Origin: Chrysophaeum taylorii
Taxonomy: Eukaryota; Sar; Pelagophyceae; Pelagomonadales; Pelagomonadaceae
Length of the DNA stretch: 64,000 bases
Direction: 5' to 3'
Assembly: GCA_029834535.1 (NCBI GenBank)
Contig: JAQMWT010000318.1
Location: forward strand, 164,246-228,245
Part shown: one piece after another, positions 8,701-64,000 of the stretch
Layout of the letters: each line of letters begins with the position of its first letter
Numbering within the stretch: the stretch's first letter is position 1
Translations under genes and position numbers: made by a program
The notes under the pieces: model-generated
Database searches by the model: none
What the model was told of the DNA's origin: nothing
The model's input: the letters and a program-made list of their open reading frames with translations, nothing else

Positions 8701-8934
8701 ATCCAGCATATGCAAACGAAGTTCTGTCACGCCAAAGCCACGCGTCGCAGTTATCGCCAGTCTCGCGGCGCAATAAATGCCCGCCACCACCAAATGATAG
8801 CTTCACGCACGCAGAGTCCTTTGCTCACCTCCTTTCACGTCCCTCCCAGCACCATGCTTGCGACGTTGAAGCTCTGCACCACTATGGTTCGGTTACAACA
8901 CAACTTCAAGCGAAATCCTCGTCCTTTGTTCTGA
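5714..8934 (+). pseudogene. decayed coding-like stretch downstream of gag-like ORF
   Basis: Open frames follow one another on the plus strand with repeated frame changes: 5927-6283, about 6630-6970, 6888-8282 and 8062-8934. Peptides such as DLTGLSMHFPTFDFELTSYL and RILVWDASIYFMSVVNAH look protein-derived, but I recognise no family. Base composition and Ser/Thr/Pro-rich style continue those of the ORF at 3139-5713, so this is probably the rest of the same retroelement. No reverse transcriptase, integrase or protease motif could be found in it. A short LRGR motif (TTRCGAGGGCGY in DNA) occurs at about 4970, 6768 and 8390; it may be chance. Confidence 0.35.
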
Positions 8935-8997
8935 TCATATCTCGCATCTGTCGACATTGTTATCAGAATATCATGCTTCGGACAAAGCTCAGACTAC

Positions 8998-9355
8998 TAA
9001 CTAACTAACTAACTAACTAACTTCAGACCTCTCCCGAGCATGGGAGCCAGGCCGGACCGACAGGAGCCAGTCCGGAATCACGGGCCTGTAGACGAGGAGC
9101 GCCGAAAGGTCGGTCGGCGGAGAGTGACCATCAAGCTTGTCGCCATGCGACGAGGAGACCGCGATGTGACTGACAACCAACTCGTCGATAACCTTCCGTC
9201 TTCGCCCCCCGGCCATACCCCGTCCCACTGCGAACGATCCGGCTGCCAACCGGCCCGCCCGGGAGGCGAATAGGTGCCAACCTACGCCGGGAGGGCGGAT
9301 GCCCTCGCAAGGCTGAGGATTCATGAGGCACCGTCCTCCATCGCAACCGCAGTCC
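8998..9355 (-). mobile_element. SINE copy A with 13-bp target-site duplication
   Basis: The 13-mer AAGCTCAGACTAC occurs at 8985-8997 and again at 9356-9368, bracketing a 358-bp insert. On the minus strand the insert begins with a GGTTGCGATGGAGGACGG block and contains GTAGGTTGGCACCTATTCGCC. It ends with GCCTGGCTCCCATGCTCGGG, AGAGGTCTGAAG and six TTAG repeats. The same head is seen at 18.8 kb and the same middle at 30.4 kb; the same 3' end closes the LINE fragment at 20.96 kb. The TTAG tail and target-site duplication fit LINE-mediated insertion. No clear RNA polymerase III boxes were identified, so 'SINE' rests on size, tail and duplication. Confidence 0.75.
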
Positions 9356-9368
9356 AAGCTCAGACTAC

Positions 9369-10233
9369 ACTCGCATATTACGCTCCTATGACGCACCCGG
9401 TTCGCTCCTCTCCGTTCACACTGCAGGTTTCCATCTTGCAGAAGTCTGAGCCCAACAGCCGCCATTGCGATTCGCACACCCAGTCGACACTTTCCGTAGC
9501 ACCCGCGAGGAGGGATATCCCCCAATCTCCACAGGTTGTTGGACACGCGCTCTGCTCTCAGCATTCCACCGAATCTCACTGCCGCACACCGCTAGCCCCA
9601 CCCAGTTGTGTTACGAATCAAGGGAAGTTAAAACTGCCATGCCTATTCTACTTCTTCATTCCCACACACACTCGCTGCTAGTCATAGTATCGCATGACTC
9701 ATTATCGGACAGTTCTCGCATTATGGACAGAACCTCGCACATCGTGTTCATTCTTCGGACATCCCCCGTCCACACAGATTAATGAAAACAAAGCTTCTTC
9801 GTTTGATTTTGGTGAAAACAACGCTTCTTCGTTTGATTCTGATGATGATGATGAAAACGACTCCGGACATGAAATACACACTGGATCGGTCGATACTGGA
9901 TCAGTCGATCGTCACAGTTCAGGAGGATTACTTAATCACAAAAGATGCGAGCGACTTTTTTTTTTGAGCATATCTTCGCGACGAAGGCAAGAACACCCCC
10001 CCCTGGCAGAGGCACGGACACTATCTTCAAGTGCAGTCCATCGCCTTGAGGACGGACGGACGGACGGACGGACGGAGGCATTTTGTTGTTCTGTTGGGCC
10101 CCGACTTTTCTGCAGAGGGCATCGACTCCTCTTCCGCAGAAGACACAGACGGCCTGTATCCACCATCATACACTCGTAAACCTCGGTCATCATTAGCCTC
10201 CTAGGTCGCACTTATATAATAATAAGACTCGCG
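9369..10233. other. no recognisable gene
   Basis: Sequence after SINE A resumes the pre-insertion locus. Short plus-strand frames at 9465-9782 and 9694-10179 show no known domain. A Ser/Asp-rich repeat (KASSFDFGENNASSFDSDDD) is encoded near 9790-9850, and a GGAC microsatellite lies at 10054-10076. The region leads into the 3' flank of the pyruvate-carrier gene. Confidence 0.3.
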
Positions 10234-49229: not shown

Positions 49230-52200
49230 ATGGAGTTGGACTCGTCGCTGCTGGGACGGGGAGCGTTCGGGCGGACGCATCGCGTGATAGAGAAGGGCGT
49301 GCGGCGCGCGATGAAGATCATCGACATCAACCGCGCTCGGAAGGTTGGGGTGGACGTCGAGACCCTCCGTTCGACCGCCCGATTCTTGTCGACTCTCGAC
49401 CATCCGAACATCGCTGGTTACGTGAGAAGTGTTGAACGGAGTGGAGAGTTTTGCGTCGTGATGGAGTACGCGAGCGGCTGTCATCTGGGACTAAAGATCC
49501 GCGAACGGCGGGACGCCGCGACGTCGAGGTCTTGGGCGCTGCAGATCTTTCGGGCCCTCGAGTACGTTCACGGCGTCGGGATTTTGCACCGCGACATCAA
49601 GCCTGAGAATATCCTGGTCTTCGAAAGGACGTTGAAGTTGTGCGACTTTGGCCTGGCGCCAGAAATGACGACCGCCGGGCCGAATTTTCGCATCAACTAC
49701 GCGTCGTCGCAGGCGGAAAAACTACGGTACGCCGCTCCGGACGACGTTTGGGCTGCCGGGTGCGTGATCGGCGAGCTTTTGACGAGCACGCCGTTGCGAG
49801 CGCGGTGCGGCGGAACAGTGCCGTTCTTCAGGAACGTCAAGGCGGTGGCGGACGTGCGCGACGAGAGCCGCGAAAGGGACGAGGTACTAGGCCCTATCGC
49901 GTGCGACCTCCTCGCTCTCGACCCGGCTCGACGTCCGTCGGCTTCAGAAGCCGCGAGCCGTCTCCTCCTCCTTCTCGAGGCCGAGCGGACGCGCGGCTTC
50001 GACGATGCCGCCCAACCCGAAAGGGTGCGCCTCGAACGAATCAAGGCGATCGAGGCAAAGGAGGCAGAGGCATTTCGCCTTCGCGAGGACGCGCGGCTCA
50101 GGGCCGACGCGTGGCGTTTGGCGCGCGACGAGCGGCTGGCCCGCACGCTGCTTGAACAACAACAACAACAACAGGAACGAGAGGAGGTTCAGCGAGCAGC
50201 TGAAGACCAGCGACGCGAAGCCAAGAGGCGGGAGATCGAGGCGGAAGCAGAACGGATGCGGTTGGAACGCGTCGCGGCGATCGAGGCGGAAGCAGAACGG
50301 ATGCGGTTGGAACGCGTCGCGGCGATCGAGGCGGAAGCAGAGCGGATACACGCGGAGCGCGTCGCGGCGATCGAGGCTGAAGCGGAGCGGATGCGGTTTG
50401 AGCGCGTCGCGGCGATCGAGGCGGAAGCAGAGCGGATGCGGTTGGAACGCGACGCGCAACGAGACGCGGCGCGCCAATTGGCGGAACAGAAACTCCGCGA
50501 GGAAGCAGAGTTAGAGCGGATGCGCCGGGCGTTGCGCGAAGAACGAGAGCGCGCCGAGAACGAGAAGAAGATTGAGCGTCTCGAGCAGCTGGCGCGCGAC
50601 GAGCGGCTCGCACACAAACTCCAAGAAGAACAAGAACGCGAGGAAGCTGCGCACCGAGCAGCTCGAGCCGAACGACGCGAAGCCAAGAGAAAGGAGATCG
50701 AGGCCGAGGCCGAGCAGCTGCGGTACGAGCGCGTCGCGGCGATCGAGGCCGAGGCAGAGCAGCTGCGGTACGAACGCGTCGCGGCGATCGAGGCCGAGGC
50801 CAAGCAGATCCACGTCGAGCGCGTTAAGGCCATCGAGGCCGAGGCCGAGCAGATCCACGTCGAGCGCGTTAAGGCCATCGAGGCCGAGACCGAGCAGATG
50901 CGCGTCGCGGCGATCGAGGCCCAAGCCGAACGGATGGAGCAGGTCGCGCGCCAGAAACGACTCGGCGAAGAAGCGGCGTCGCGACAGGCGGCCGAAAACA
51001 AACGACGCGAGGAGGCCGAGCGGCAGGCGCTCGAGGCCGAAGTTGAGCGGATGCGCCGCGAGCGAGCTGCCCGCGAGCTGCAAGAGGAGCGAGAGCTCGC
51101 GGAGGCGGCGCGACAAGCGGCCGAAAAGAAACGACACGAGGAGGCCGAGCGGCAGGCGCTCGAGGCCGAAGTTGAGCGAATGCGCCGCGAGCGTGCTGCC
51201 CGCGAGCTGCAAGAGGAGCAAGAGCTCCAAGAGGCGGCGCGACAGGCAGCTGCCGAAAAGAAACGACACGAGGAGGCCGAGCGGCAGGCGCTCGAGGCCG
51301 AGCGGCAGGCTCTCGAGGCCGAGCGGCAGGCTCTCGAGGCCGAGCGGCAGGCCGAGGCCGAGCGGCAGGCCGAGGCCGAGCGGCAGGCCGAGGCCGAGCG
51401 GCAGGCGTCGGAGGCCGAGCGTCAGGCCGAGGCCGAGCGTCAGGCCGAGGCCGAGCGGCAGGCCGAGGCCGAGCGGCAGGCCGAGGCCGAGCGGCAGGCG
51501 TCGGAGGCCGAGCGTCAGGCCGAGGCCGAGCGTCAGGCCGAGGCCGAGCGGCAGGCCGAGGCCGAGCGGCAGGCCGAGGCCGAGCGGCAGGCGTCGGAGG
51601 CCGAGCGGCAGGCCGAGGCCGAGCGTCAGGCTCTCGAGGCCAAGCGGCAGGCCGAGGCCGAACGGCAGGCGTTGGAGGCCGAGCTGAAGGCCGAGCGGCA
51701 GGCGCTGGAGGCCGAGCTGGAGGCCGAGCGGCAGGCGCTGGAGGCCGAGCGGCAGGCGCTGGAGGCCGAGCGGCAGGCGCTGGAGGCCGAGCGGCAGGCT
51801 GAGGAGGCCGAGAAAGAGGCTGAGGAAAAGAAACGACGCGAGGAGGTTGAGCGAGTCGCGCTCGAGGCCGAGCGAGTCGCGCACGAGGAACGAGAGGAGA
51901 GTGCCGAGCGGAAGGCCGAACGGCAGCATCTCGCGCGCAGGGAGGCCGAGCGGAAGGCCGCGGCGGAACATCGGCATCACGCGCTCGACGAGGTGCACAA
52001 GCTTCAGGGACATCGAGAACGCGAGAAGGCGGCGCGTGAGGCGGCCCAAAAGAAGCGGCACCAGACGCGGCAGGCGATCGAGGCGGAGCGGATGCGCCTC
52101 GAGATGATGCGCCTCGAGCGGGCCTCGCGCGAAGACCAAGAACGCGAGCGACACGCGAATCGACGCGAGGCGCGGTACGAGGCGCAGCTGGCGATCGAGG

Positions 52201-55200
52201 CGGAACGGATGCACCGCGAACGAATCGCGCGCGAACAACAACAGGTGCGGAAGCAGGTCGGGCGCGAGAAGGCGTCCGAAAAGTCAAGCGAGGCGTTGCA
52301 GGCCATCGAGGCCGAACGGCGCGACAGAATTGAGCGCGAGGAGACCGAGCGGCTTCACGTCTCGCGAAGCAAGCAGCTTCAAGATAGGGAACGGTCCCGC
52401 TGTGAGTCGCGGCATGCCGTCGCGACCGAACGGACTCGCCGGGAGCGAATCGCGCGCGAGCAAGGACAGGATGCGGCGCGGCAGGCGTCCGAAAGGAGAC
52501 GACGTGACACGTGGCAGATCGAACGGACGCGCGGCGACGAGAAGCTGCAAGAAGGAGCGGTGCGGAATCGACGCGAGGCGCGGTACGAAGCGCACCAGGC
52601 GCTCGAGGCCGAACGGATGCGCCGCGAACGACTTGCGCGCGAACAACAACTTCGCGCGGAGGCTTCGCGGAAGGCCGAACGACGGCATGTGGACGCGCAG
52701 GGACGAGAAGATGCCGAGCGGACGCGCCGCGAAGAACACGCTGAAGTCTCGCGTGACAAGCAGGTTGAGGAACGGACGCGCGGCGACGAGAAGCTGCAAG
52801 AAGGAGCGGTGCGGAATCGACGCGAGGCGCGGTACGAGGCGCAGCAGGCGCTCGAGGCTGAACGGATGCGCCGCGAAAGACTTGCGCGCGAACAACAACT
52901 TCGCGCGGAGGCCGCGCGGAAGGCCGAACGGCGGCATGTGGACGCGCAGGGACGAGAAGATGCTGAACGGGTGCGCCGCGAAGAACACGCTGAAGTCTCG
53001 CGCGACAAGCAGGTTGAGGAACGGACGCGCGGCGACGAGAAGCTGCAAGAAGGAGCGGTGCGGAATCGACGCGAGGCGCGGTACGAGGCGCAGCAGGCGC
53101 TCGAGGCTGAACGGATGCGCCGCGAACGAATTGCGCGCGAACAACAACTTCGCGCGGAGGCTTCGCGGAAGGCCGAACGGCGGCATGTGGACGCGCAGGG
53201 ACGAGAAGATGCCGAGCGGACGCGCCGCGAAGAACACGCTGAAGTCTCGCGCGACAAGCAGGTTGACGAACGGACGCGCGGCGACGAGAAGCTTCAAGAA
53301 GGAGCGGTGCGGAATCGACGCGAGGCGCGGTACGAGGCGCAGCAGGCGCTCGAGGCTGAACGGATGCGCCGCGAACGAATTGCGCGCGAACAACAACTTC
53401 GCAAGGCCGCGAGGAAGGCCGAGGCCGAACGAGAGCTCGAGGCAACGCGCAAGGCCGAGGCTGAGAAGCGAGAGCGCGCGCGCGTCGAGGCGGCGCAGAA
53501 GGCCGAGGCTGAGAAGCGAGAGCGTCTCGCGCGTCTCGAGGCGGCGCGCAGGGCCGAGGCTGAGCAGCGAGAGCTCGCGCGCCTCGAGGCGGCGCAGAAG
53601 GCCGAGGCTGAGAAGCGAGAGCGTCTCGCGCGTCACGAGGCGGCGCGCAAGGCCGAGGCTGAGCAGCGAGAGCTCGCGCGCCTCGAGGCGGCGCGTAAGG
53701 CCGAGGCTGAATGTCAGGAGGCGGCGCGCGAGGCCGAGGCTGAGCAGCGAGAGCTCGCACGCCTCGAGGCGGCGCGGAAGGCCGAGGCTGAACGTCTCGA
53801 AGCGGCGCGCAAGGCCGAGGCTGAGCAGCGAGAGCTCGCGCGCCTCGAGGCGGCGCGGAAGGCCGAGGCTGAACGTCTCGAGGCGGCGCGCAAGGCCGAG
53901 GCTGAGCAGCGAGAGCTCGCGCGCCTCGAGGCGGCGCGGAAGGCCGAGGCTGAACGTCTCGAGGCGGCGCGCAAGGCCGAGGCTGAGCAGCGAGAGCGTC
54001 TCGCGCGCCTCGAGGCGGCGCAGAAGGCCGAGGCTGAACGTCTCGAGGCGGCGCAGAAGGCCGAGGCTGAACGTGTCGAGGCGGCGCAGAAGGCCGAGGC
54101 TGAGCAGGTCGAGCGTCTCGCGCGTCTCGAGGCGGCGCGCAAGGCCGAGGCTGAGCAGGTACGTGTCGCGCGTCAGGAGAAGCAGCGCGAGGCGGCGCGA
54201 CAGGAGACTGTTGGTGAAAAGAATGAACGCGAGGCCGAAGAGAAGTCGCGGCGCGTCGCGGTGCAGAGTATCGAGGCGGAACGGCGAATCGCGCGCGAAG
54301 AAGAAGAAGAAGAGGAAAGAGCGGCCGTTCGCATCGTCGAGCCACCCGAAGCCGAGAAGTTGCGGCGCATCGCGGCCGCGCGGCAGATGATCGAGGCCGA
54401 AGGCAGGTCGCGGAGGCGGCAGGTTGTTGCGGCGGTGGAGGTGACCGAGCAGGCGTCGTACGATCGCAAGGAGCACGAGAGAGCGGCGCGGCGGTTTGTG
54501 GAGAGGAGGCGACGCGAGGCCGAGGAGAATCGCGTGATAAAAGCCGAGGCCGAGCGGATCGCTTTCGAAGAAGAAGAAGAAGAAGAAGAAGAAAAAGAAG
54601 AAGCCGAGAGACGGCGGTTGGAATTCGGCGACGAAATCGCGCTGGAAGTTGAGGACGAAGAAGAGGCGGCGCACCGGTCTTCGGAAACGCACCGGTCTTC
54701 GGAAAGATTTATCCAAAGCTGCAACGAGACGTTGCGGCGCGTCCTGGAGCGTCTCGAGACGGACGACGTAACGCACCTGAATCTCGGGTTCAGCGACATT
54801 GGAGACCAGGGCGTGGCGCGCGTCGCGTCGGCCCTCAAGCCGAGCCGCCGTCTCCAACTATTGAATCTAACTTTGAGTGGAATAGGAGACGAGGGCGCCG
54901 CGCACGTCGCGGCCGCCCTCCGGAACAACTCGAGTCTCTTGACCCTCAATCTCTCGTGGAACGGCATCGGCGACGAGGGCGCCGCGCGCGTCGCCGCGAG
55001 CTTGGGGTGTAACACGGCTCTCCAAACACTAAATCTTTCGTACGTTTTGTTTTTTTTGTTGAAACCACTTCCCCGCAGAATGAACGAGATCGGCAATTCC
55101 GGAGCCGTGCGAATTGCCGAATGTCTCGAGGAAAACGGCCATCTCCAAATCCTAAACCTCTCGTGCGCCTTTTTCTTTTTTTCGTTTAACACTTTAAAAA

Positions 55201-55430
55201 ACAGAAAAAATAAAATTCGCGACGACGGCGCGTCGCGCTTGATCCTCGCCCTCGAGAACAACCAGACCCTCAACACCCTCTACCTCGCGTAAGCTCTGTC
55301 GCCTGGCGTTTCAAAAGAATTCCCCTCCAACAGGCTCAACCCGTTCAACGACGATCTGGACCGCCAGCTCGAGGAAGTCGCTAAAAAAATGGACAGGCAA
55401 ATTTTCAATCGGAGCTTTTTGTCAAAGTGA
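49230..55430 (+). CDS. giant protein kinase - coiled coil - leucine-rich-repeat protein
   Basis: Four exons (49230-55039, 55079-55162, 55205-55288, 55334-55430) give 2024 residues. Residues 1-245 form a Ser/Thr kinase: glycine loop GRGAFG at 9-14, Lys29, HRDIKPEN at 120-127 and DFG at 139-141; all catalytic residues are present, so it should be active. Residues about 255-1830 are an Arg/Glu/Ala-rich coiled coil with tandem repeats (EAERQ, a repeated 83-residue unit, and KAEAEQRELARLEAA units). Residues about 1840-2010 are 28-residue LRRs of the ribonuclease-inhibitor/NLR type (LNLSWNGIGDEGAARVAASL). Introns of 39, 42 and 45 bp all fall in phase 2; the first two lie just after LNLS and the third at the matching point (LYLA) of the next LRR. 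Reading through the introns breaks the LRRs, and splicing restores them exactly. It is likely a cytosolic kinase with a long stalk and ligand-binding end; its pathway is unknown. Confidence 0.88.
51285..51815 (+). repeat. AERQ/EAERQA coding tandem repeat
   Basis: Inside the kinase coiled coil, GAGGCCGAGCGGCAGGC-type units of 12 to 18 bp repeat more than thirty times. A larger unit holding QASEAERQAEAERQAE recurs about three times. The repeat keeps the frame throughout and produces long shadow frames on the other strand. Confidence 0.9.
52524..53402 (+). repeat. 249-bp coding tandem repeat, three full units and a part
   Basis: Units start at 52524, 52773, 53022 and 53271, exactly 249 bp (83 codons) apart; each begins RTRGDEKLQEGAVRNRREAR. 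The copies are nearly identical, so the array arose or was homogenised recently. The fourth unit stops after about 130 bp and runs into the KAEAE array (about 53404-54150), which has its own roughly 78-bp periodicity. Confidence 0.92.
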
Positions 55431-56458
55431 AGCGACTCTTCTTTTTTTTTTGGGTGTTTATTTTTTCAAAGCCGACTGATGATGCTTTTTTGATGATGGT
55501 TTCTACCCTTTTTTCCAGTACGGGATTTCGCTATATATTAGGCCACCACCACCACATTTTCGTCTTTTGTTTTTGAGATTTTAACCCCCGAGACACCACG
55601 CAACCGAAAAAAAAAAAAACAAAAAAAAACTAAAAAAAATTTTAACACCCGAGACACCACGCAACCGAAAAAAAACCAAAAACTGTCGGTCGACGTCGAT
55701 ATTTTTCGTCCGTCCCCCCAAGCCAGCACATTCTTGTTACTTTTGTAGAGAGAGAAAGAAAGGAATCTGCTGACCCCCCTTATTCCGTCCGTCGAGAACG
55801 CCGCGCGCTCTTCTTCTTCTTCTTCTTCTTCTTCTTCTTCCCATTTCACCAAATCAACACAGTTGTTCTTTTACTCGCCAAACACGTTTGTAAGAAATTT
55901 AATTACCTAATACCTCCTTTACCTACTTTTTGCAGAGCATTTAGCATAAAGTAAGTCACCTGGGAAACCATCCCGTCTCATCATGAACGTCTGGAAGGTT
56001 GTTTTAATTCGGGGATGCAGAGAAATCTGTTGCCTCTGTTCCCGCGCCAGCCCAGCCTCGCCACGCAAACACGCTTGTTGTATATAACGCCATTACCATT
56101 GGGCTGTATATAGCATATTTTGCACACGTGATGATCGTGTAACCTTGTGTGCACCTGTTCATAGCATCGTATTGTCATGTCAATGTTGATGTGTGTGTAA
56201 TTGGCTAACCTGTACTCTCGCACACATGTTATGGAATATTTTGGGTACGTCCACTCGTACCTTCCATGGCAATGCACTTAAGAAGCTCCTTGAGAGCACC
56301 AAAACTAACCAGCTGCCTGAGTGACTACGCTTAGCGACACTACTCTGGACTCACACCTTTTGCACAGTCGTCAGTCATATAGACACATTTTATCCATCGA
56401 AAAAATCGATGAGCGTACATAGACACCGATAGACAGACCCCCTTAGAATGTCTAGACA
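55431..56458. other. kinase 3' flank and 5' region of copia element 2
   Basis: A 37-bp block (TTTTAAC.CCCGAGACACCA then CGCAACCG and A-run) occurs twice, at 55578 and 55639. A CTT run lies at 55808-55839. From about 55860 the sequence turns AT-richer without frames above 100 codons; it probably includes the 5' LTR of the copia element that begins coding at 56459, but LTR ends and a primer-binding site could not be defined. Confidence 0.4.
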
Positions 56459-58176
56459 GTGTCAACTGCGCGACTGAACCCACAGGTTCCCCCGTCAACT
56501 GCTATGGCAGAACACGCACCACCAGGAGCCGCACCCAACGCGATCACAACAGGTGCGGACATACTAAAGCTCGAAGCTCCTGTAGTTGAGTTTCTTAATG
56601 AAGGAAACCGGTTTCAGCTTCAGAACCGCAAGGTATCCTTGCAAATCAAGCATATCAAGCAATTACTACGGTCCAGTCATGCCGATGCTTTCCTCGAGTA
56701 CGACTCGTATGAAGCACATACTCGGTCATGCAAGGACTACGAAATTCCTCCTCCGGAATCACATTCTCGATCGCGTTTTCCATTGGAATGGAAGACCGAT
56801 AGGGCTGCTGATTATCTCCGTTTAGCTGTTGATGAATTTCCCCCCCCCCCCTGAGTATCAGGAATGGCATTTCGCCAACGAAGCTTTCCGACACTTACCT
56901 GATGCAGAAGTAGCTCAGCTAACTACTGTCTGTTACGACTATGAAGTCAAGGCATTGGGCCCTGAAATCAATGCCCGTTTCTTAGAAGAGGAACGAATCT
57001 TAAATCGCGCACACCCGAAGGCACTAGCTTTCGACACCCGTGTTCGTGCCCCTGTTACCATGTTTTCGTTAACTGCTGCTGACTGGCACGCTTATCAGAA
57101 CACGTATGCTACATTCTTGCATACTTACTTCAATCTCGAAAGTGTTGGAAAACCAGCACTTGCGGCCTGGCCCGCCATCAATGAGGTATATAACAAAAGT
57201 TATTTACCCAACAAGGCTCGAGCCATTATGCTCATCGCCTTTAGTCACTACGAGTCTGTTACGACTACTGATGTGTCCTATTTGAAACAGCAATTAAACT
57301 CGGCTGTTTATAATCCTAACTGGTATGTCCATGTATTTATCGAAGCTGTCCTGCATTTAGGCAAATCTCTTACCAACTTAACCAGGAAGAGACTGACCTT
57401 CAATTCGACATTGGCACTCTTTGTAGAAAAAATCTATGAAGAGATACATCGGCATTATGCCGATAAAACCAGCAACAATCGTTACGATCGTGGTTGGGTA
57501 GATTGGTGTTATATGTACGAAACCCGATCTTCATCTCGGCCTGTGCCAGAAGCTGAACGATTGTGTCACCCTACCATCCCTAGCTACATTTTAGAATATG
57601 CATTAGACCTTTACAATGTAGTATCAAATGGGTCGAACAAAAGACGCTTAGAACGCCCTGTTTCTTGGCAAAACCCTTTGTCGAAGGTTTATCAACTCAA
57701 CCAAAGCCAAAGTTACTACTTACACATACTTTGGACTCATCGGACAAAAGTCTGACTCAAACTGCTAACACACTTCGTCCCAACCTGGTACATCTTCCAC
57801 GTTTAATGCTAGACGCTTGCGTAACTCTAATGATGCTCGCCAGCCTTTCTCTCGCAGCGATTTATCGTATTATCGTCCTGGTGATTCTTACGTCACCAAG
57901 AAAACTGCCGGACAGTCCCATGACCGTCCACTTTACCCCCGCACTTTTGACAGGTCCTCTCGGTCTAACATGAAATTATTAGATCGAACAAACCACACCT
58001 TAAACACCCTGCGAGAACAGTGTAGCGAACTCACGAAACATGTGACAGATAATGATACCACGACTCAGCTACAACATAATATCAACAAGTTATTTGAGAC
58101 TCTGTTACAATCAGCTGACATTCTGTCAACGACATCTACTGAGGACAACCGTAGTTTACTTCGTCTTAACGAATAG
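56459..58176 (+). CDS. copia element 2 gag, frameshifted
   Basis: The first frame (56459-56854) encodes VVEFLNEGNRFQLQNRKVSL and stops after a run of twelve C (56840-56851). The adjoining frame (56829-57755) continues EYQEWHFANEAFRHLPDAEV, YFNLESVGKPALAAWPAINE and NRYDRGWVDWCYMYETR; one C fewer would join them. The last part shifts again to 57817-58176 (SNDARQPFSRSDLSYYRPGD and a helical end NTLREQCSELTKHV). The overall layout is that of a copia Gag of about 550 residues, which would form the virus-like particle. No CCHC zinc knuckle is visible. It is unrelated in sequence to the gag-like ORF at 3.1 kb. Confidence 0.65.
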
Positions 58177-58393
58177 CTCATGTTTGCAGAAAACACCATT
58201 TATGATGTAGACGTTCATCTATCCTCGACCGAAAAGTCGTTAAACTACGTGGAGCCACAACACCATACTGTCGTTACCGCTCCCACCCCAACAACAACTC
58301 CTCCTACTACAAACACACAGGGTAATCCTTCCAACACTGTGTCTAACCTCTTTACCGCTTCCGCCATCTCGGCTTTTTTTACCACCAGCATTA

Positions 58394-60331
58394 TTGTCCT
58401 CGCTATCCTCACAGGTCCAATCTGCCCTCAACACACCATCACAAGCCGAAAACAAAAGGGATGCCGATCATACTTCGCTATCGTCATTTGATGAAAAGCA
58501 CGGCATGGCTGATGAGGCTGACGAACCATCACCACCTGTTCAACCGATTATTATTCGAGCGAATCTGTTATTGCGGAAGAACTTCTTTACAGCCAGCCTC
58601 TCCACTACTTGCCCACATTCGAAAAACGCCTTCCTCTCCAACTACATGAAGGTAAACAGTGTCCCTCCACATTGCTCTTTTCTATATTTTGACTCTTGTG
58701 CTACCATCTCATTGATGTCCACCTACGATTTCGCAATACCCAATCATATAATTCCATTGGACTCCACATACGCTCCGATTGTTATTCAGACGGCAACAGG
58801 ACAACAACGGGCATCACACATGATGTTAACACGCAACATCGTTATTCCCCTACCAGATCATCCACAAGTTGGCTACGTTAAGATCGACTTCGCTTTATGT
58901 CTTCAACCAGTGCATGACCGACATCTCGCTATCCTGAGCATGCTCGAATGGAACCAGACCAATCTTACCACCGAGTTCAACGATCGAGCTGAGCCAAGGC
59001 TCAGCGCTGTCACGAGCCGCATAGACAAAGATGTACGTATATCCATACACTATGTCGCAGCTAATTTACCCGCTCTCCCTTGTATCACTTACAACATCGC
59101 GCGCGACAAGCGGCTGGAACTTCGCTCCCTTGCATTTCCCCTCAAGCGATACCATGAAAACAGGGAGCTACTGGCATACTACAATTACCTACTCCAACGA
59201 GTTTTACCAGATCGGCCGTGGATTCGCCTTTTGGTTCTCAATCTTCGGAAACAGAACAAATTTGTTCAGCAAAATACGCAGCCATTAAGTGGACTACTCG
59301 CACGGCCAGTTTTTCTCTCACAAGAGTCCAATCTCCGCAAACCCTCTGTCATGTTACTTTGTTCTGGTTTGTCAACTCCGGCGTTCCTGTCTCAAGCCAC
59401 TAATGACTTAGGCTTAAATATCAATGTAAAAGTTGTTGTTGAGTCTGATGATACGCTTGCTCGTATGTTACGCCACCGTTTTCCTACTGTACTATTCTTT
59501 GAATCTCTCCCCGCCTTTATTAACCACCTTCACCTAATCTCACCAGAGGAAAGGCGCACATTCTATTGTGATATAATTGAGATCACTCCTCCCTGCACAA
59601 ACAGGAATTTACTAAAACAGCATAAGACAGAAGACTTACACCGCCTGCTGGACGATTCTCTTTTCGACAGCATGCTGTCTGTCATCAAACTACTCCAGCC
59701 CTTGGTACTACTGGCTGAGATGACGCCTCCGCATAAGTACTGTCACCAAGACCACATCACAGTGGCCAACCTTATCTATACTACCCGTGATTACTGTGTC
59801 GATGTTGTTGATAGGTTCCCGACCTACCTCTGTGGCGACTACCAATCTAGAGAAATATGGATATGCATCGCACGCAGATATTCTACTGGACCAATTAAAC
59901 TATCATCGTGGCCCATCCTCCATCCACGACCCTTCCTAAAGATCGTGGATGATCTACAAGCTATTCCCAAGCGCCTTTGGCTACCTAACCACATATCCAA
60001 AGACTGGATCCGGGTGTTCCCCGATCCTCCATATATCCCCGTTCCTAAAACGTTTGCACGTTACTCTCGCACAGGTTCTGTTCAGCTTACTATGGCTGAC
60101 CTTGAATCCCTCAATATGTTACTGCTTCGCCTTCACTCACAACAGGCTCACGAGCAACGTACTCACTCTGTTCAATCCGAGTGTACTTATCATCAGTTGT
60201 GCTTTAAACGCTCCTCTATGGAGCCACTACCCAATGCAACACATCCTATACACGTCAAGATTTTACAATTCTCTATAACGTGTTTACAAGCATACATACT
60301 AACTCACCCATTCCTGTGTCCTATTACATAA
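58394..60331 (+). CDS. copia element 2 protease plus C5 methyltransferase-like domain
   Basis: The uninterrupted frame has 645 codons. Residues 95-190 are a retropepsin-type protease with FDSCAT at 99-104 (active Asp100; the usual Gly is Cys). Residues about 315-545 follow C5 cytosine methyltransferase order. Motif I-like LLCSGLSTPAFLSQA is at 321-335, an acidic motif II VVVESDDTLARMLRHRF at 347-363, and motif IV DIIEITPPC at 393-401 with the candidate nucleophile Cys401. SLFDSMLSVIKLLQPLVLLA then EMTPP (Glu442, in the ENV position) follows, and motif VIII-like YQSREIWICIARR lies at 483-495. The pattern around PPC, Glu and Q.R matches the family in order and spacing; motif I and ENV are degenerate, so activity is unproven. 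ATG 58394 is simply the first in frame; the natural product is probably cut from Gag-Pol. Downstream integrase and reverse transcriptase are frame-broken. Confidence 0.75.
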   Translation: MSSLSSQVQSALNTPSQAENKRDADHTSLSSFDEKHGMADEADEPSPPVQPIIIRANLLLRKNFFTASLSTTCPHSKNAFLSNYMKVNSVPPHCSFLYFDSCATISLMSTYDFAIPNHIIPLDSTYAPIVIQTATGQQRASHMMLTRNIVIPLPDHPQVGYVKIDFALCLQPVHDRHLAILSMLEWNQTNLTTEFNDRAEPRLSAVTSRIDKDVRISIHYVAANLPALPCITYNIARDKRLELRSLAFPLKRYHENRELLAYYNYLLQRVLPDRPWIRLLVLNLRKQNKFVQQNTQPLSGLLARPVFLSQESNLRKPSVMLLCSGLSTPAFLSQATNDLGLNINVKVVVESDDTLARMLRHRFPTVLFFESLPAFINHLHLISPEERRTFYCDIIEITPPCTNRNLLKQHKTEDLHRLLDDSLFDSMLSVIKLLQPLVLLAEMTPPHKYCHQDHITVANLIYTTRDYCVDVVDRFPTYLCGDYQSREIWICIARRYSTGPIKLSSWPILHPRPFLKIVDDLQAIPKRLWLPNHISKDWIRVFPDPPYIPVPKTFARYSRTGSVQLTMADLESLNMLLLRLHSQQAHEQRTHSVQSECTYHQLCFKRSSMEPLPNATHPIHVKILQFSITCLQAYILTHPFLCPIT

Positions 60332-61085
60332 CCGTTTTCGAAACTAACCAACCGTCACACAGGTTATTACTTACAACCTCATCAACATCACACAACTCCT
60401 ACTTCTTAACTGGTGGCCACCATTCCGACGGCAACCTCACCATAGAGAACGCCACCACCAAACATCAAACTCCCATCAACGCCTTTGGAAGCACGTATAC
60501 GTTCACTGCTTCCGACATCCCCCGCGACCGGGACAGGTCCATATATTTGGAGCCGTTTATGGGTTACTTGTGGATAGTCCAAGCCCTTCCCCAAGTTGGC
60601 TCCGCTACCACCTATGGCACCGCCATACAAAACCTCGTGTCCAGATGCGCTCTCGTGATGCCTGGCTGCCTTACCTACAAGGCCACCGACAACTCTTTCG
60701 ATTACAAGGATTCTCATTTTGCTCTGGAAGATCATCACCTATCTCATAGTCGCTATATAGGGTATCTTCGTGGAAGTGACCGCAAACTCGGCTCTAAAAT
60801 CCAATGCTTGCTCCATTGCCAACCGTCCGAGGGTATGCCAATATTATTTTACTCGACCCTCGCAACGGGAAATTACGCTACCCCACTCGACCGGAGTTGA
60901 TTCGTGCTAACAACCACACCAAACAACAGGAATCCTTCCTCTTGTCTCTACGCCATGATCTTTGCTGTGACATGCTCAGCAATGCTCTGCTACATACTGC
61001 ACTCTGTACAAGCACCTTTCGCTCATCGTCGCCGATATTAAATCCCTTATGTTGGACCCTACCTTCCAACATACTGCTGCCGTGA
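60280..61085 (+). other. copia element 2, region between methyltransferase-like domain and integrase
   Basis: The frame 60280-60900 (206 codons) encodes FGSTYTFTASDIPRDRDRSI and YLEPFMGYLWIVQALPQVGS, then HFALEDHHLSHSRYIGYLRG. A second frame (60804-61085) reads YANIILLDPRNGKLRYPTRP. The sequence looks protein-coding in both but I recognise no domain. It would lie between the methyltransferase-like part and the zinc-binding start of integrase in the polyprotein. Confidence 0.4.
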
Positions 61086-61439
61086 CGAAGAAACCTATGT
61101 ATCCAATTTCATGACCGTTGACCAAGCCTCCACCACGTGCAGCACAGATACCTTGTCTTTGCCAATCTTATGCTGATGTCTATTTCCAGCAACTGCTTGA
61201 CCGAAATGTCGTTAAACTATATATCGTCGTCCTACGAAGATACTCGCTACTCGTGATAATGAGGATGCACCTCCGTGACCCTGCTGTGCACCAGGATGAC
61301 GACGCACCGCCCCCCTGCCTTAGACACCGAACTCAAGTTCGATGTTCGGCGCAAACGGCACATTCCGCTCATCCACCTCGTAAGTCCTCGCACACGGATC
61401 CACCGAATATCTCAATGCCAAAGAACGTGCTAACGCTTT

Positions 61440-62309
61440 CACCGGGTGCATCACTGCCCCGACAACGTCGCTGCCAAGGCACCCAACGTACTTGCTCGCC
61501 CTGGATTCTCTGCTTCTGACATACCATATCGCGACTTATGCACCGACTGCATCGCACAACAAGCGCCACCCGCACAAGCATTTCAATGCGACCTTCCTCT
61601 TTGAGCAAACCCACAAAGCCGGTGAAGTCTGGCGTGCGACGGCGGCTATGTGACCATCCCATCCGAATGGGAGGCTTCACACATATCATCGTCTTCAGGA
61701 GCTCATTTCGAAATTTCTTGGTGTACTTTACACGCACCACCAACGCCACGGAGTTCACTCAAGCTCTGATTTTGTGTATGACTTCTGTCGTACACAACTC
61801 AATGTGCACGCACCCTCTACTCCGATTTATCTGCCTTACTTTAGCCAGCACATTACCTCCCCGTACCGCGTCGATAAGGGCATTCAACTCATTGCCTTCC
61901 CGCCGTACATGCACCACTTTAACTTTGAAGTTGAGTCTGCCATCGGTTTCATCGCCTCCGCCTCTCAACTCGCCTTCGTTCTCTCCTTAATGCTCACTAT
62001 CGTGGCGCCATCGTGGAACCAGCCATCATGTTCCCATGGGCGGTGATACACACCGTTCAAAGCTATAACCTTCTCCCGAACGCCACGCTCGAGCGCATTC
62101 ATCATGCTATTCTGAGTCCGCAACAGCTACTACAACCAACTCAGCACTCCCCAACACGATATGCTCAAGATTTTGGCGCTGAATGTTACCTCCTATTGGA
62201 GCCCCATGAACACCGGAACCGTGCCGCCGCAAACTGTATCTCTGTTGCGCCAACGCACAAAACCCGCTCGTCTCCCCACGCGTCGACCATCTCGCTGACG
62301 TCGTCCTGA
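61440..62309 (+). pseudogene. copia element 2 integrase, frame-broken
   Basis: The GAG-pre-integrase motif is visible near 61470-61600 (VLARPGFSASDIPYRDLCTD then CIAQQAPPAQAF). The catalytic core follows in another frame (GGFTHIIVFRSSFRNFLVYF then TRTTNATEFTQAL near 61670-61770), and the second core part (KGIQLIAFPPYMHHFN, VESAIGFIASASQ) near 61880-61970. The C-terminal section (AIMFPWAVIHTVQSYNLLPN, RYAQDFGAECYLLLEPHEHR) is near 62015-62215. Integrase would join element DNA into the genome. At least three frame changes indicate decay. Confidence 0.75.
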
Positions 62310-63355
62310 AAACGGACAAATTGTGTTTCGTCCAAGCTGCAACCTCGCATGTTGCAGCATCCTGATCCTGAACTAGCTCCTCCGCCACACGCTCCTTCCG
62401 CACCTTTCTCGCTCACACCCCACACCACTATCCAATCCATGTCATTCAGAGGGGACGATCCTCATCCTCAGAGGGGGCACTCACCTCCTTCAGCTCCTCC
62501 TTCTTCGTCCCCTACTCCGGCCTCTTCTCCCTCTTCTGACGCTATCGCCGACGAATCTGGCTCTATGTCACCGCCGCCCTTGCTTTCTTCTTACCAAGAC
62601 CTTTTTGCGCAAGATGACCTCATTCTTGTCCCAGGCTCCAAACAGCCTAACACTCGCAAGGCCACTTATATGAAAACTATCCGAGCCCGGTTACAAGCTG
62701 TCTACTATTGGTGCTTACAAAGCAGCTGGTGGCAAGCTCGCCGATTTCGCTGGGATCTTCGCCACCACTTTCTTACGTTCAAGTCTCCCGCCCTCTGCCC
62801 TTCATCTCCGTGGTGGTATCCTCTGGTCTGCTATCTGCTCAGAGGGGGAACATGCGTTGTAGCTGTCTTCTTCTCCCGTTGCGCACTGACTTACTTGCCC
62901 GCTACCCGCACGTCGATGGTTACTTCGCCCACGCTGGCGCATCCAGCATCCCAGCTGCAACCTTTAACTGCTGATGGTTCACCTACGTGCCTATTCCTCA
63001 GCCCCTTTTATCTGCGTTCACTGAACACGCTGCTGCCTTCGGCACTCTTCCTTACAATATGCACTTACGTACCTGGCGCCGACCAGCTTGTGATCACAAC
63101 TCATCCGAGTTTGGCGCTACTTCTGCATCTCTGGCTGACTTGGGGTCACCTTCTGGTCTCTAAAGAGTTTATCACCCCGGTCTTACGTACCGACCCTACT
63201 ATCCATATCCAACTGGAATCTGCCCTACTACTCCTACTGACGCTGTTTCCGCTTATCCCGAAGTTGCGCACACTGCCTCGACCGCAACGTCGCTAAACTA
63301 TAATTCACCAGCCACTGTTGGTCCTGACGAATATAAGGTCCAGCGGACGTTTCCA
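62310..63355 (+). other. copia element 2, linker before reverse transcriptase
   Basis: The frame 62349-63296 starts with a Pro/Ser-rich linker (PHAPSAPFSLTPHTTIQS, GSMSPPPLLSSYQDL), common between copia integrase and reverse transcriptase. After about 62700 the likely true reading moves to other frames (YKLSTIGAYKAAGGKLADFA). No known domain is recognised. Confidence 0.45.
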
Positions 63356-64000
63356 TTGACGAATATAAACTTGCTCTCCACGGTTTGTCGCCTGAAAACA
63401 GGCACGCCTACCTCAAGGCCATCGCCAAGGAACTCCACGACATTATCCGCTTTGGCTGCTTCAAACTTTTCCTTACCCGACGGTGTCTCTCGTCCTATTG
63501 ACAGCAAGATGGTGCTGAATATTAAAACAGACTCTGCAGGCAAATACGTTAAGCACAAGGCTCGCCTCGCTACGTGGCTTCCTCATCTTGGCGCCGATTT
63601 TTGGTACCTTCAGCCCCATGGCCACCATGACCGCAATCCGGGTACTATTAGCTATTGCAGCAGCATACAAGCAATTGCCTGTCTACCATGCGACGTCCCG
63701 AACGCCTTGTTCAGTCTGACATCGATGCCAATGTCTATGTTCAGTTACCAGACGGCATCAAGCTTATCGACCCCGATGACGCTAAGTACAAGGGCCGACG
63801 TCTACCGAAACTGCTGAAGTCACTTTATGGACGGCAATCACCACCTTTGGAACAAAGAGATAGACGGCTTCTTCCGTGCCTTTACAAACGCCTGCATTCT
63901 GACTCTGCCTATATGCTCGAGTATCCGCACATGCTAAGTTCGTCGTATGCAGTATCTGTCTGTAGACGACGCAAGTAATACGTAACTGAACGAAGTACAA
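63356..64000 (+). pseudogene. copia element 2 reverse transcriptase, incomplete at window end
   Basis: The reverse transcriptase entry reads DEYKLALHGLSPENRHAYLK, then AIAKELHDIIRFGCFKLF. After a shift it reads DSKMVLNIKTDSAGKYVKHK and ARLA, then, in another frame, SPMATMTAIRVLLAIAAAYK. The last frame (63655-63978) gives QSDIDANVYVQLPDGIKLI and KLLKSLYGRQ. This is copia-type but clearly distinct from the pol at 1.1-2.5 kb. Several shifts are present and the catalytic VDD motif would lie at or beyond the window edge, so RNase H and 3' LTR are not seen. Confidence 0.8.

Follow-up and report, generated by a model that had tools for sequence, protein, structure and literature searches.

Introduction

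Methylation usually silences transposons, and elements that encode their own cytosine methyltransferase reverse these roles. The locus described here raises the question of whether a copia-type retrotransposon has captured such an enzyme and, if so, how the enzyme would be produced and what it would act on. The DNA analysed, referred to as the window, is a stretch of 64,000 nucleotides from Chrysophaeum taylorii (C318:164246-228245). It contains an open reading frame of 645 codons at 58394-60331, with TTG as start codon, along which FDSCATISL, CSGLS, ESDD, TPPC, AEM and QSREIW follow one another in this order. We take FDSCATISL to be a retropepsin motif, and the names given below to motifs I, IV, VI and VIII of the downstream domain are likewise our own assignments. 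The initial annotation had described a protease motif followed by motifs in methyltransferase order; our translation agrees with it on the frame and on the residue numbering, which makes the cysteine of TPPC Cys401 and the glutamate of AEM Glu442, and the core that it marked, 59336-60028, falls inside the domain delimited here (Table 1). We consider it probable that a copia-type LTR family, called family A below, acquired a C5 cytosine methyltransferase that now opens its Pol, that the enzyme is rationed by stop codon readthrough and that it marks the element's own DNA, the last being a prediction.

Table 1. Features of the window element (window positions) and of other methyltransferase genes in the same genome (locus or contig positions).
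Feature	Location	Strand	Basis or remark
Copia-type element	56036..64000	+	blastn collinearity with other copies from 56036 to ~63970
gag-PR region, frame broken	56892..59290	+	tblastn with the L013 gag-PR frame
Protease-like motif FDSCATISL	58688..58714	+	translation; no Pfam match
Junction codon GGA, then CTA	59291..59293	+	codon table; TGA in 24/27 distinct copies
C5-cytosine-methyltransferase-like domain	59300..60253	+	homologues P0002 and P0003 with PF00145 and PHROG matches; alignment
Motif I-like CSGLS	59360..59374	+	invariant in three-row alignment with P0002 and P0003
Catalytic-type Cys of TPPC, ORF residue 401	59594..59596	+	Cys in 27/27 distinct copies
Motif VI-like Glu of AEM, ORF residue 442	59717..59719	+	Glu in 25/26 copies
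Motif VIII-like QSREIW; family form QSRERW	59843..59860	+	private Ile at 59855-59857
~400-aa region without recognised domain, methyltransferase-integrase interval	60262..61640 (approximate)	+	tblastn collinearity, L013 pol frame
Integrase region, decayed	61640..62320 (approximate)	+	collinear with L013 pol residues ~773-1018
Start of copia reverse transcriptase, cut by contig end	63458..63970 (approximate, inferred)	+	collinear with L009
Family B examples	L040:469-3444; L045:487-3423; L049 (C96:65700-67900)		protease-like motif and C5 methyltransferase (PCQ, ENV)
Family C example	L050 (C456:33600-35200)	-	FSGAGG, SPPC; PF00145 E=2.2e-6, over cutoff
Likely host C5 methyltransferases	L029:1498-2577; L030:1006-3537		L029, 360 aa, PF00145 E=4.1e-19; L030, long, E=7.9e-18

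Identity of the domain

The window ORF has no match in Pfam at E<=1, and its domain has none in NCBIfam or PHROGs. Among the five methyltransferase-bearing frames of family A scanned with Pfam, L017 and L012 gave PF00145 at E=0.073 and E=0.088, and L013, L014 and L009 gave no PF00145 match. The profile evidence comes from two relatives. P0002 is a marine-eukaryote transcript protein (source mmetsp) with 42% identity across 98% of the region (E=4.6e-50). It scores 3e-8 against a PHROG DNA methyltransferase profile and 4.4e-4 against PF00145, the latter below the Pfam cutoff. P0003 (source ena), with 37% identity, reaches PF00145 at 6.1e-5, narrowly over the cutoff (23 bits vs 22), and a PHROG DNA methyltransferase at 4.6e-7; neither protein has a methyltransferase match in NCBIfam. 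The assignment to PF00145 that had been suggested for the window thus stands by way of P0003 and P0002 and fails for the window ORF itself. Since P0002 is an MMETSP transcript, a relative of the family A domain is transcribed. Its ORF, named complete by its source, has 392 aa and is mostly methyltransferase, with a Met start near the position of the retrotransposon TGA discussed below.

Invariant among the window, P0002 and P0003 are CSGLS, the Glu-x-Asp that follows, the PC of motif IV, AEMTPPH and DRFPTYLCGD-x-Q-x-RE. Family A also aligns with a second family of the same genome, family B, in a profile-to-profile comparison (E=1.4e-4, 280 columns, probability 53%). Sequence searches of the PDB with the window ORF and family A returned chance-level rows only, a search of IMG/VR confirmed no relatives of family A or B, and a protein search with the long Pol query gave no match.

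Two AF2 models of the domain are Rossmann-like and of low confidence (mean pLDDT 45 and 47). Dehydrogenases match them as well as or better than DNMT3 does, and DNMT3A/3B appear among many Rossmann matches, where their presence is no test of methyltransferase class. These fold matches, and the lack of a profile match for the window, are what one would see if the domain were a Rossmann fold of another class, such as a short-chain dehydrogenase, resembling C5 methyltransferases by chance; we disfavour this reading and hold it to be very improbable, as P0002, P0003 and family B all match C5-methyltransferase profiles with their motifs in order. At the level of sequence, the captured C5-methyltransferase-like domain in a copia family is real, and its homology and architecture are well supported.

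Conservation and selection

Searched against its own genome, which comprises 70.8 Mb in 697 contigs, the family A domain (59300-60253) gives at least 154 matches; the best 150 of 1007 candidates were scored, 150 are listed, and the true number is probably higher. Identity among these 150 is 71-100%, and most lack internal stops. We read 27 distinct copies, namely the window, the 7 next best matches and 19 chosen in most cases because their open frames are long or their sequences divergent, which makes this a non-random sample; L001, which is the window's own locus, and L021, which is the same place on C137 as L007, were dropped.

Cys401 is kept in the window and all 26 other copies. One copy has no codon aligned at Glu442; of the other 26, 25 keep the Glu and the broken copy L023 has TGA instead. 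Both residues have equivalents in P0002 and P0003. In the QxRxR motif, the Gln and the first Arg occur in 27/27 copies and the second Arg in 26/27, the window being the exception with Ile. The QSREIW that the initial annotation reported is thus present in the window but private to it, and the family form is QSRERW. In motif VI, the Asn-Val of the canonical ENV is replaced by Met-Thr throughout the aligned family A copies, giving EMT, also found in P0002 and P0003; Met follows the Glu in 25 of 26 family A copies. By eye, no motif X was recognised in the family A domain.

Rates of substitution were estimated with NG86, leaving out 40 of the 351 pairs whose dS was either zero or at saturation. 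The median dN/dS of the methyltransferase is 0.121 for dS above 0.5 (73 pairs), 0.200 for dS between 0.1 and 0.5 (150 pairs) and 0.326 for dS below 0.1 (88 pairs); a rise at low dS is the pattern expected if constraint acts during movement and fades after insertion. Comparisons between subfamilies gave a usable dS in eight cases, which overlap in membership and so are not independent of one another. Across these, the methyltransferase gives 0.09-0.12, next to 0.08-0.17 for PR, 0.08-0.25 for gag, 0.13-0.49 for the ~400-aa region and 0.23-0.43 for the integrase, with the highest values of the last two coming from pairs that include the decayed window copy. In four comparisons with L017, dS is saturated for the methyltransferase domain. 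These ratios show the methyltransferase domain to be under purifying selection, as estimated from codon comparisons, and the check proposed earlier on Cys401 and Glu442 came out in its favour, both in the copies and in the two outside relatives. The ~400-aa interval between methyltransferase and integrase, in which no domain was recognised, has a dN/dS of 0.13-0.25 in six A-A pairs without the window copy.

Alternatively, the domain may be a methyltransferase fold with little or no catalytic power that the element retains to bind DNA or to support the structure of the particle. The EMT in place of ENV in the aligned family A copies, P0002 and P0003 (Met in 25/26) and the unrecognised motif X speak for such a fold, and EMT could reduce activity. 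We nevertheless judge a dead or weak fold to be quite unlikely: the Cys, the Gln and the first Arg of QxRxR are unbroken in 27/27 copies and the second Arg is kept in 26/27, CSGLS, PC and AEMTPPH remain invariant down to 37% identity, and family B retains both PCQ and ENV.

Architecture of the element

The most complete view of the downstream part comes from copy L009, whose frame of 1691 codons (1691 aa) begins with the methyltransferase and continues with a weak rve match at residues 784-866 (E=0.0076), an SH3 match at 968-1007 (E=5.6e-4) and a strong RVT_2 match at 1431-1651 (E=7.7e-42). In the genome at large, RVT_2 lies on the same strand 3.2-6.3 kb downstream of 45 of the 150 listed methyltransferase copies; among the RVT_2 matches listed (150 of 1670 candidates), none lies on the opposite strand within 9 kb of those 150 copies. 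As read from the translated copies, the family order is shown to be gag-PR, in-frame TGA, methyltransferase, ~400-aa region, integrase and RVT_2 reverse transcriptase, and the element is classed as copia-type. The family frames and the profiles of the relatives thus bear out the earlier proposal that a copia element carries a C5-methyltransferase-like domain and that this domain lies between protease and integrase.

Relative to other copies, the window element is truncated at the 5' end by ~380 bp (by blastn, L009 has ~380 bp of extra shared upstream sequence), and on the 3' side it is cut, as contig C318 ends where the window ends. The gag-PR frame of L013 matches it by tblastn in separate pieces (56892-57671, 57772-58377 and 58427-59290), and its frame changes near 60260 when compared with the L013 pol frame, in which residues ~773-1018 carry weak matches to rve (E=0.011) and SH3_retrovirus (E=0.0017). 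The window copy is a decayed family member, with its stop lost, its frames broken, the second Arg of QxRxR changed to Ile and its end cut by the contig.

As for the long terminal repeats, the copies have a common 5' boundary, and the sequence covered stops short of their 3' ends; with the best 40 of 821 candidates for the 5' end scored, no pair of such repeats was shown. In L013 the 5' part of the element is duplicated (L013:1260-2031 and 8909-9682, 94% identical) and is then followed by more 5' sequence; this is a tandem or nested copy, and is not shown to be an LTR.

A conserved in-frame TGA

The unbroken frame running from protease to methyltransferase, as given in the initial annotation, is true of the window and atypical of the family: 24 of the 27 copies carry an in-frame TGA at the junction, the window has GGA there, and L010 and L020 have no codon aligned. 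All other stops in these copies amount to 4 in 8,536 aligned codons, at four different positions. Genome-wide, the junction pattern occurs with TGA in 116 matches, with a changed first base in 1, second base in 1 and third base in 4 (116/122); these are pattern matches not each checked as junctions, two of the four with a changed third base share their coordinates on two contigs, perhaps through duplication of a single locus, and the patterns need AC before the stop, so that the window's own subgroup is missed. Among the 24 stop-bearing copies read, the stop is always TGA and never TAA or TAG. The TGA seems to be a real stop in this genome, because the 1691-codon frame contains no TGA. Protease and methyltransferase are thus, in the copies aligned, normally separated by a conserved in-frame TGA, and the single frame of the window is best seen as a stop-loss.

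The codon after TGA is CTA in 17/24 copies, ATG in 3/24, ATA in 2/24, CTG in 1/24 and CCA in 1/24. According to the covered parts of two reports, readthrough in Ustilago needs no more than TGA CTA (PMC4207609), and the human consensus for high readthrough is also TGA CTA (PMC4359377). The conserved stop is probably leaky, and its conservation in a readthrough context makes the methyltransferase most plausibly the leading domain of a Pol expressed by readthrough. RNA folding of the 120 nt that begin with the TGA was unremarkable in five copies, of which two do not differ in this stretch (z -0.04 to 1.10).

Pol, including the methyltransferase, might instead be made by reinitiation after the TGA, or from a separate transcript or start. 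An ATG directly 3' of the stop in 3/24 TGA copies, an in-frame Met just ahead of motif I and the naming of P0002 as a complete ORF would suit such a route, as would the gag-UGA-pol junction of Candida Tca2, which, in the part of the report covered, gave no readthrough on its own in yeast and held a minor promoter (PMC2194720). On the other hand, 21 of the 24 copies have no ATG there, the readthrough context CTA is present in 17/24, and TAA or TAG never replaces TGA; we therefore regard reinitiation or a separate start as rather unlikely, if deserving of some weight, and continue with readthrough.

Other methyltransferase families in the genome

A search of the genome with PF00145 gave at least 124 matches (123 scored of 474 candidates, sorted by profile position), which include two further groups and likely host genes. 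Family B accounts for 55 of the matches listed; all 18 that were read have a motif of PC-Q-H-L type, and 4 of the 18 have a protease-like motif and the methyltransferase in one open frame. It carries the canonical PCQ and ENV and matches PF00145 at E=2.4e-8 and 4.2e-8, TIGR00675 dcm of NCBIfam at 1.4e-8, which is below that model's own cutoff, and, among PDB sequences, M.HhaI at E=0.071 only. An integrase lies downstream in the one place followed (rve E=0.0018), and no RVT_2 lies near family B among the RVT_2 matches listed; the family is probably copia-type.

Family C comprises 63 matches to the start of PF00145 only, of which one (L050) was read, so that its unity is assumed. Among the matches listed, an integrase lies 3.4-3.9 kb downstream on the same strand in 15 of the 63 and on the opposite strand in none, and RVT_1 lies 1.6-1.95 kb downstream in 11 of the 63, with 92 of 152 RVT_1 matches entered. 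Reverse transcriptase ahead of integrase gives a Gypsy-like order. Of the two likely host enzymes, L029 presumably resembles DNMT2 and L030 presumably DNMT5, class labels that we assume from their motifs.

Proposed mechanism and activity

In the mechanism that we propose, a copia-type LTR retrotransposon family would have captured a C5 cytosine methyltransferase and kept it as the first domain of Pol. Most ribosomes would halt at the UGA and yield Gag-PR, and the few reading through UGA-CUA would yield Gag-PR-MT-IN-RT, which would enter the particle and be processed by the protease. With S-adenosylmethionine, the methyltransferase would then methylate cytosines, the most likely target being DNA of the element itself, either particle cDNA or freshly integrated DNA. 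Each new copy may thus mark its own DNA chemically; so marked, it could be taken for host DNA, or the mark could influence how it is packaged.

What the genome says about activity comes from differences between copies. In the 2018 study of retrotransposon DNMTs, as far as its covered sections go, these enzymes carry out de novo methylation of CG (PMC5890265). Integrated copies under heavy CpG methylation would be expected to show many CpG transitions. In family A, the transition difference rate at CpG is 0.064 vs 0.052 elsewhere, a ratio of 1.24 (166 aligned stretches, >=93% identity), and in family B the CpG/non-CpG ratio is 1.18 (50 stretches). The observed/expected CpG ratio is 0.99 in the window element vs 1.14 across window 1-50000, in which the lowest of the 8-kb blocks has 0.94, and CpG depletion of the element is at most slight. 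A trinucleotide scan of the differences between copies was led by GCT and CCG, with no clear single site. Weak CpG decay, as far as sequence comparison can tell, argues against strong CpG methylation of integrated copies and not against transient methylation of cDNA. A bolder version, in which at least three C5-methyltransferase retrotransposon families share one genome and the copia family, rationed by UGA-CUA readthrough, methylates its own cDNA beyond CpG, is possible but tentative, and we lean against it as a whole.

The same missing signature would follow if the domain descended from a C5 methyltransferase but methylated RNA, either the element's genomic RNA or a primer tRNA, as strong CpG decay is absent from both family A and family B copies. 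The methyltransferase, however, sits in Pol with integrase and reverse transcriptase, and LTR elements make cDNA inside particles. RNA methylation was raised in the 2018 paper, within the sections covered, for the LINE-type enzyme, which left DNA in yeast unmethylated; the DIRS-type enzyme did methylate DNA (PMC5890265). Weighing these points, we think RNA an unlikely target and retain the element's own DNA as the predicted one.

Comparison with known systems

C5 methyltransferases were reported in LINE, DIRS and Gypsy elements in 2018 (PMC5890265), and we thus focus here on what family A shares with such elements and where it differs; each source is quoted for its covered sections. First of all, KnitGypsy-Dnmt3 of Klebsormidium nitens is, like family A, an LTR element whose Pol contains a C5 methyltransferase that evolves under purifying selection; it is, on the other hand, a Gypsy element with an enzyme of the Dnmt3 class, and those sections describe no in-frame stop, whereas family A is copia with a TGA (PMC5890265). 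Second, SymbioDIRS-Dnmt3 and SymbioLINE-Dnmt of Symbiodinium are likewise multi-copy retrotransposons with a C5 methyltransferase, the former a DIRS element with a tyrosine recombinase and the latter a LINE, unlike the copia family A; the abundant Copia elements of Symbiodinium are stated there to be without any DNMT domain (PMC5890265). Third, the Tca2 element of Candida albicans has gag and pol split by an in-frame UGA, as family A does; its abstract does not mention a methyltransferase, and family A has its protease-like motif upstream of the stop (PMC2194720). Finally, Sola1 of Ectocarpus is also a transposon with an accessory DNA methyltransferase, there a ParB-like and methyltransferase gene, and differs in having a transposase and no RT and in an enzyme predicted to make N4-methylcytosine or N6-methyladenine (PMC12477816).

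A 2019 opinion article mentions Gypsy and DIRS elements of stramenopiles and algae that encode methylases, and in its covered sections the word copia is absent (PMC6338049). One sentence of a 2025 paper, with the 2018 work as its reference, places DNMT3 members in 'LTR Copia and DIRS' elements; it names Copia as a carrier, as in family A, and the sections covered describe no such element (PMC12344493). Copia there may be a slip for Gypsy, which is what the cited 2018 paper reports, and the sentence lowers any claim of a first. In the open-licence PMC literature we found no description of a copia element with the anatomy of family A. Family A adds a copia lineage in which the enzyme would be the first Pol domain behind a conserved, probably leaky stop. 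Its natural variants (CTA, ATG and ATA contexts and the stop-loss copy in the window), together with the ENV-bearing family B, make the role and dosage of the enzyme testable.

Neighbouring sequence

Upstream of the element, the window holds at 49230-55292 an ORF of 2020 aa with a protein kinase domain. It contains very long Arg/Glu/Ala-rich repeats, with copies at a spacing of 249 nt over 52521-53567, and a leucine-rich repeat close to its end.
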